Positions 23,360 through 24,907 of a stretch of 64,000 nt of DNA are shown here, piece by piece. This stretch comes from an uncultured Gammaproteobacteria bacterium. GTDB taxonomy: Bacteria; Pseudomonadota; Gammaproteobacteria; GCA-002705445; GCA-002716945. Position numbers and translations under genes: made by a program. Below the pieces are notes generated by a model. That model searched no databases. It had not been told where the DNA came from and saw nothing but the letters and a program-made list of their open reading frames with translations. The DNA is taken from positions 124,001 through 188,000 of the forward strand of contig CACEHM010000003.1 in assembly GCA_902559355.1 (NCBI GenBank), read 5' to 3'. The first letter of the stretch is position 1, and each line of letters begins with the position of its first letter.

Positions 23360-24907
23360 ATGAACGATAAAATACTAGCATTAAAATATAGACCTCATTT
23401 TTTCGATGAGGTTGTAGGGCAAGAGTTTTGCGTACAATCACTAAGTAATTCCATTAATCTTAATAAACTACACAATGCCTATCTATTTTCAGGTACAAGA
23501 GGTGTGGGGAAAACAACTATTGCAAGAATATTTGCAAAATCTTTATTATGTAAGGAGGGTATAAGTGCTACCCCTTGCGGTAAATGCGATTCATGTCTTG
23601 GAATTGATAATAACAATAATCTCGATCTTATAGAAATTGATGCAGCATCAAGAACAAAAGTAGAAGATACACGTACACTTATGGAAAATGTTCAATATGC
23701 TCCTACATCATCACGGTTTAAAATATATCTGATTGATGAAGTTCATATGCTATCAACCAAAAGTTTCAATGCCTTGCTTAAAACTATTGAAGAGCCACCA
23801 GAACATGTGAAATTTTTACTTGCCACTACTGAACCCGATAAACTTCCAGAAACTGTTATATCAAGATGTCTACATTTCAAACTTGAACCAATTACTAATG
23901 AAGAACTTGGAGAACATATTAAAAAAGTATTAGAGTCTGAAAATATTAACTTTGAAAAAGATGTTCCTGAAATAATCTCAAATGCAGCCAGAGGTAGCGC
24001 AAGAGATTCCATGAGTATATTAGAACAATGTATTTCTTATACTAATGGGGATCTTAAAAAAGATAAAATCTCTCAACTACTTGGATTAATTGAAAACACT
24101 CTCATTGATCAAATTATTCATGCCCTTTATGAGAATTCTATTTCAGAAATTAATGATGTCTTAAAGTCTTCAAATATATCTGATTATTCAAAATTGCTCG
24201 ATTGTTTAATTGAACGTATTTTCCAGATTTCTATATCACGATCATTGAATAAGAATGATTTTAACTTACCTAATAATTTTCTAAATACAGATATTAGTCT
24301 TCAAGATCTGCAGCTTTGGTATTCCATTTTAATGCAATCTAAGGAGCAAATGTTCAATGCTGTATCTAAGGCTGATCACTTAATGATGATACTTCTACGT
24401 ATATCATTATTTACTGAATATCCTGATCAAGTTAAATCTAATATTAATAATCAAAGAAAAGATACTGCTATTTTAACTGATTCTAAAAAAAAAAATGAAA
24501 CCGTAGCCGAAGATAGTATCTCTCAAAGTGTTGTTGATATATCTATGTGGAAAAAAACTATTGATAGTTTTAAATTACAAGGATTAATGCTTGATCTTGC
24601 TAATAATTCTATTCTTGACTTGAAAAATGATGCAACAATTTTGATTATAGATAAATCCAAAGAAAATACTTATCCAAAAAAATGCATCACGGATTTCAGT
24701 ATATTAATATGCTCAAATTTCAAAAGCGATCATGTGTTGACAATAGAATATAGAGAAAACATAAACACACTATATAAAAAATCTATCACCGATGGTATTA
24801 AATCAAAAAATGATATGTACGAGGCCATCAAAGATAATAATGATCTCAAAGAAATAGAGAGTGTATTTGGTGCTAAAATAGATAAAGATAATATTAGTAA
24901 ACTTTGA
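23360..24907 (+). CDS. dnaX: DNA polymerase III subunit tau (and probably gamma)
   Basis: A 515-residue clamp-loader subunit. Walker A is FSGTRGVGKTTIARIF at about 43-58, the zinc module has three visible cysteines in CGKCDSC plus an earlier one, Walker B is YLIDEVHMLS, and the sensor region ATTEPDKLPETVISRC follows. AAA+ domains I-II and the collar domain III run to about residue 370; the remaining 140 residues are the tau-specific tail, shorter than in E. coli (643 total). An A11 tract at codons 376-379 sits at the junction and may generate a 379-residue gamma form. It heads dnaX-ybaB-recR and starts one base after the cupin stop. Confidence 0.95.
   Translation: MNDKILALKYRPHFFDEVVGQEFCVQSLSNSINLNKLHNAYLFSGTRGVGKTTIARIFAKSLLCKEGISATPCGKCDSCLGIDNNNNLDLIEIDAASRTKVEDTRTLMENVQYAPTSSRFKIYLIDEVHMLSTKSFNALLKTIEEPPEHVKFLLATTEPDKLPETVISRCLHFKLEPITNEELGEHIKKVLESENINFEKDVPEIISNAARGSARDSMSILEQCISYTNGDLKKDKISQLLGLIENTLIDQIIHALYENSISEINDVLKSSNISDYSKLLDCLIERIFQISISRSLNKNDFNLPNNFLNTDISLQDLQLWYSILMQSKEQMFNAVSKADHLMMILLRISLFTEYPDQVKSNINNQRKDTAILTDSKKKNETVAEDSISQSVVDISMWKKTIDSFKLQGLMLDLANNSILDLKNDATILIIDKSKENTYPKKCITDFSILICSNFKSDHVLTIEYRENINTLYKKSITDGIKSKNDMYEAIKDNNDLKEIESVFGAKIDKDNISKL
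24485..24495 (+). other. Candidate frameshift/slippage site in dnaX (A11)
   Basis: Eleven consecutive A residues follow codon 375, read in frame as AAA AAA AAA AAT. A -1 change of frame reads one more AAA and then TGA at 24496-24498, giving a 379-residue product. The other frame stops at TAG, 24504-24506. Both alternatives therefore end right after domain III, as in the gamma subunits of E. coli (ribosomal) and Thermus thermophilus (transcriptional slippage). I see no strong downstream hairpin or upstream Shine-Dalgarno stimulator, which favours polymerase slippage. Confidence 0.6.

Follow-up and report, generated by a model that had tools for sequence, protein, structure and literature searches.

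The dnaX gene in the stretch of DNA analysed here (64,000 nucleotides, referred to below as the window) contains a run of eleven A residues. We estimate a probability of about 0.65 that this A11 tract is a maintained slippage site, through which a single dnaX gene would yield both tau and a gamma-like subunit of about 379-382 aa. In the mechanism that we propose from the sequence, standard reading of dnaX would produce tau, a protein of 515 aa. On the run, RNA polymerase would most likely add or drop A's, as in the dnaX gene of Thermus thermophilus, and those mRNAs in which the A count departs from 11 by a non-multiple of 3 would be read into a nearby stop in the -1 or the +1 frame. The short product would consist of the domain I-III core with a short lysine tail and would be devoid of domain V. 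We infer that slippage occurs, that it is transcriptional and that the short protein is used; the candidate is probably a further case of an already known kind of dnaX slippage. If this reading is correct, it would add another independent route to gamma, by slippage of the polymerase and not of the ribosome, in the class to which E. coli itself belongs, and would bear on the old question of the need for gamma outside E. coli.

The tract lies in the linker between the clamp-loader core and domain V

The window protein matches TIGR02397, the curated model for the DnaX N-terminus, with 391.3 bits against a cut-off of 250, and matches E. coli gamma/tau in the PDB (1jr3/8gj0) with E ~1e-91. The gene is followed on its 3' side by ybaB and then recR. 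Pfam matches to the core (DNA_pol3_delta2, DNAX_ATPase_lid and DNA_pol3_gamma3, the last of these weak and slightly under its cut-off) extend to residue 357. The domain V family PF12170 was found at residues 386-512 with an E value of 1.6e-4 and 22.3 bits, which is below the gathering score of 28.8; it was detected at E <= 0.001 in all 19 DnaX members of the family, the best of which reached 3.1e-12. In an AF2 model built from these 19 members, pLDDT falls under 50 only at residues 1-6 and 358-389, and folded parts flank the linker on either side. In profile searches the model for the DnaB-binding domain IV had no match in window DnaX, and the C-terminal part of the protein, compared alone with PDB sequences, gave chance matches only. 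Tau is short in the family of the window gene (about 500-550 aa), and a linker of ~30 residues joins domain III to domain V.

Table 1. Features of the window dnaX gene (positions in the window)
Feature	Position	Strand	Remarks
dnaX CDS, DNA polymerase III subunit tau	23360..24907	+	515 aa; NCBIfam TIGR02397; PDB match
Clamp-loader core, domains I-III, residues 1-357	23360..24430	+	Pfam and AF2 fold
Linker, residues 358-389, predicted disordered	24431..24526	+	pLDDT <50; column conservation
A11 tract, codons 376-379 (AAA AAA AAA AAT), proposed slippage site	24485..24495	+	
-1-frame TGA directly 3' of the A11 tract (predicted 379-aa product)	24496..24498	+	
+1-frame TAG 8 nt past the A11 tract (predicted 381-aa product)	24504..24506	+	
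Tau domain V (alpha-binding), residues about 390-515	24527..24904	+	Pfam PF12170; folded in AF2 model

An earlier note on this DNA had reported an A11 tract at codon 376, between domain III and the tau tail, with a TGA in the -1 frame directly after it and a stop in the other frame eight bases on. All of this is confirmed by the coordinates in Table 1, which place the tract 73% of the way through the 515 codons. Because it lies in the linker between the core and domain V, a slip would give a gamma-like protein of 379 or 381 residues, in which domains I-III are predicted, from Pfam and the AF2 model, to be intact and domain V to be wholly removed. When indels were simulated in the window gene, the gain of one A, or a -1 ribosomal shift, gave 379 aa, and the loss of one A, or a +1 shift, gave 381 aa; two A's gained gave 382 aa, two lost 378 and four gained 380. 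The range of 379-380 residues given in the note thus becomes about 379-382. As the note had also stated, this is the longest A run in the window, where the next longest runs of A or T are six in number and each 9 long. Nine-mers of A are ordinary there (9 matches against 11.1 expected).

The run and its flanking stops are conserved within the genus

We sampled nine genomes of the genus, which we take from the sample names to be marine, and found dnaX in eight; G000 denotes the genome of the window, and seven of the genes (L001-L007) are intact. A run of A9-A12 occupies the same place in 8/8 of the dnaX genes found. Its length is A11 in G000, A10 in G002 and G008, A12 in G001, and A9 in G003, G004, G007 and G006. 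In G002, whose dnaX is 98% identical to the window gene, the tract reads A10 followed by T. In the dnaX tree the species with A10-A12 and those with A9 fall on opposite sides of one branch.

Two of the nine assemblies call for comment. In G005 no match was obtained to either dnaX or recR, presumably owing to an assembly gap. The G006 dnaX (L031, G006:C3:106700-109200) contains several indels, including an extra G right after its A9, and this breakage is probably an assembly error. Assembly error as the origin of the tract itself is ruled out by the intact frame in seven independent genomes. Phase variation was also rejected, as an out-of-frame run occurs in no genus genome except the G006 assembly.

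Among the seven intact sequences, three lysines are essentially the sole conserved feature of the linker, in which no other column is invariant. The spacing from these lysines to a conserved tryptophan of domain V is a constant 18 residues in these sequences. In G004, which has a local, duplication-like insertion in the linker, the KKK sits in the second copy. Several different codons extend the run in the genus (AAT, ATT, TTA, TCA and GTA), and in G003, where the third lysine is encoded by AAG, the preceding GTA codon nevertheless keeps the run at A9.

The stops in the alternative frames are also close. For L001-L007, in that order, the -1 stop lies 0, 1, 2, 0, 12, 2 and 2 nt past the run and the +1 stop 8, 9, 10, 11, 20, 19 and 16 nt past it. 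Thus the -1 stop is within 2 nt of the run in six of the seven intact genes, the exception being G003 with 12 nt. In all four species with A10-A12, a -1 stop within 2 nt is combined with a +1 stop within 11 nt, though the residues after the run differ. Both stops are that near in 5-6% of A8+ runs in the genus genomes, a background to be read with the provisos that the distance thresholds were picked post hoc and that the comparison is among related species, with 98% identity between L001 and L002. As a check, the earlier note had proposed that relatives be examined for conservation of an A9-A12 run with a stop close by in another frame. Within the genus the outcome is positive, with the qualifications that four of the species have only A9 and that the tract is confined to the genus, as follows.

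Among 14 dnaX genes of the family that belong to other genera, none has a run of nine or more in the linker, so that the feature is a genus-level one. Similarly, a run of 9 or more was seen in none of the outgroup dnaX genes read, a set from which several loci escaped motif parsing. The lack of the tract in sister genera counts against a maintained site. It would be expected if the run were simply tolerated, slippage there being harmless since the core still works, with selection against A10+ relaxed at this one spot and no programmed function. The predicted disorder of the linker at the point of truncation, past a complete core, and the variation in length from A9 to A12 would also fit such an explanation. 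Relaxed selection alone, however, would permit decay to AAG or to codons other than lysine, whereas the run has been kept together with its close -1 stop even though every other linker position has diverged. We therefore consider tolerance rather unlikely.

These genomes avoid A10+ runs in coding sequence

The significance of the tract depends on how often such runs occur in the genome, which in G000 is 1.04 Mb with 31.4% GC. As background we used the full G000 sequence, most of G008 and 220 kb of G007, counting sense-strand runs in ORFs from a simple caller with a minimum length of 60 codons and taking expectations from synonymous-codon shuffles. A10+ runs are depleted ~16-fold in G000 (3 observed, 47.5 expected, sd 4.6) and ~7-fold in G008 (6 observed, 44.6 expected), and are absent from the 220 kb of G007 (10.2 expected). 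For A11+ in G000 the expectation is 19.1, and the one run observed is that of dnaX. A10+ runs are rare in all nine genus genomes; those of A11+ are confined to five loci, dnaX accounting for two, and the sole A12 is that of G001 dnaX. By contrast, A9 is near neutral and not clearly avoided (78 observed against 96.5 expected in G000, and 23 against 19.2 in the 220 kb of G007), and A6-A8 runs are in slight excess over the shuffles. It follows that the threshold of harm in these genomes lies between nine and ten, and that the dnaX runs of four species exceed it. Whether the harm arises from slippage in replication or in transcription is not distinguished by these data, a reservation also made in PMC1088944.

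This avoidance makes the dnaX run exceptional. Since A9 is about neutral, the A9 species weigh little and slippage in them may be weak; the weight of the argument consequently falls on the A10-A12 species, on the position of the tract and on the gene in which it is found. With genus conservation, the avoidance of A10+ supports the view of the earlier note that this is a probable gamma slippage site. Long A runs are discarded from nearly the whole genome in this lineage, yet one appears to be retained exactly at the gamma/tau boundary.

These counts bear also on the notion that selection acts on the lysines, as a basic patch in the linker, and not on the nucleotides, the A run being a by-product of a preference for AAA. 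The KKK is indeed a conserved feature of the protein, and AAA makes up 80% of lysine codons. Moreover, G000 and G008 have 58 KKK sites in common; six of them bear an A9+ run in G000, which is retained in G008 at four, so that conservation of A9 largely follows from conservation of KKK. A preference of this kind would nevertheless predict AAA AAA AAA at about 51% of KKK sites, and in G000 it is used at only 31 of 142 (22%), which makes the codon choice in dnaX contrary to the habit of the genome. A10+ is nearly absent. Among the 58 sites dnaX alone is A10+ in both genomes, and G000 has three A10+ coding runs, of which that of dnaX alone stays A10+ in the G008 ortholog. Finally, the run is lengthened by the flanking codons, as in G003, where GTA compensates for AAG. 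Selection for lysine alone thus seems very improbable.

Search for signals of ribosomal frameshifting

The short product might instead be made on the ribosome, by -1 frameshifting on A_AAA_AAA in the manner of E. coli dnaX. This heptamer is available in the 0-frame phasing in the window and in six of the eight genus genes, A_AAA_AAG being found in G003 and G006 only, and the -1 stop is suitably placed at the tract or within 2 nt of it in six of seven species. A single tRNA-Lys was found in G000, with the anticodon UUU as in E. coli, so that some ribosomal share is conceivable. The stimulatory elements, on the other hand, are missing: no Shine-Dalgarno-like element lies within 25 nt upstream of the window tract, and none was seen upstream in six of the seven species, G003 having a weak AGGG. 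Downstream, the 60 nt past the window run fold to -7.0 kcal/mol, which is nothing beyond background, as folding at least as good is given by 42% of the contexts of A7+ runs in the genome. In E. coli, furthermore, A_AAA_AAA is far less prone to shift than A_AAA_AAG (PMC5009743), and seven A's would be enough for the ribosome, yet 9-12 are retained. The absence of a Shine-Dalgarno element and stem-loop, the identity of the heptamer and a run longer than the ribosome needs together favour RNA polymerase over the ribosome, and we regard frameshifting as the main source of a gamma-like product as improbable.

Comparison with known dnaX systems

Three routes to gamma are known, namely -1 ribosomal frameshifting in E. 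coli, RNA polymerase slippage in Thermus and proteolysis in Caulobacter (PMC5009743, PMC1088944). The earlier note had likened the tract to both E. coli and Thermus, and of the two the Thermus type fits better. In T. thermophilus the dnaX run is A9, with stops in both other frames, and about 50% of the product is gamma (PMC1088944, PMC5009743). Both genes have one long ORF for tau, a late run of A's on the sense strand and near stops in the two other frames, and in both the short product retains the clamp-loader core, a property that is predicted in the present case. They differ in the length of the run (9-12 here, 9 in Thermus) and in its position (codon 376 of 515, or 73%, as opposed to seven-eighths of the way through). 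The present gene, in which slippage is predicted from the sequence, also belongs to another phylum and to an AT-rich genome purged of A10+.

The resemblance to E. coli lies in the logic of the end product, the -1 stop right after the slippery run, the sole UUU tRNA-Lys found and membership of the Gammaproteobacteria. E. coli dnaX, however, uses a programmed -1 frameshift at A_AAA_AAG with a Shine-Dalgarno element and a stem-loop (PMC3711429, PMC5009743), and it is these ribosomal stimulators that are absent here, where the heptamer is mostly A_AAA_AAA and the run much longer.

Two further cases involve poly-A tracts. In the two-ORF dnaX genes identified by GeneTack in Chlorobi and others, transcriptional slippage has been proposed on runs of A7-A10, mostly A10 (PMC3711429); in those genes gamma is read in the genomic frame and tau arises by slippage, whereas in all the intact genes described here the genomic frame encodes tau. 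For Blochmannia, transcriptional slippage has been invoked at poly-A frameshifts in dnaX (PMC3017870). This is likewise a reduced, AT-rich gammaproteobacterial genome with a poly-A run in dnaX, but its run lies downstream, in the tau-only region, where slippage would rescue a broken frame; in the present case the frame is intact, with the run at the gamma/tau boundary.

These comparisons allow a more tentative suggestion, to which we give somewhat less than even odds. The genus, with its streamlined genomes, may have evolved dnaX slippage of the Thermus type independently of the E. coli signal and in the midst of a purge of A10+ runs, with the length of the run, from A9 to A12, tuning the ratio of tau to gamma between species.

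Other A runs in the genus

A second A11 was noted in G000 (L192, C3:21502-21512, minus strand), where it covers codons 5-8 of what may be an ORF of 47 codons (MQNNKKKNEKTKKK...); another frame has a TGA immediately past the run. The longest coding run in G008 is an A11 at codon 177 of a ribonuclease III-like (rnc-like) ORF (L190, G008:C1:108889-108899, minus strand), and the run is shorter in the G000 ortholog. Conserved A9 runs are common to G000 and G008 at G000:C1:189075-190827, C4:9222-10239 and C3:2043-2673, in genes that we take to be DsbD-like, PlsX-like and deoxynucleoside-kinase-like, respectively; the first and last are found in G007 as well. A conserved A9 also marks the overlap between the end of one gene and the start of the next at G000:C2:61-829 and 800-1253, presumably PhoH-like and YbeY-like, and this arrangement is present in G008 and G007.
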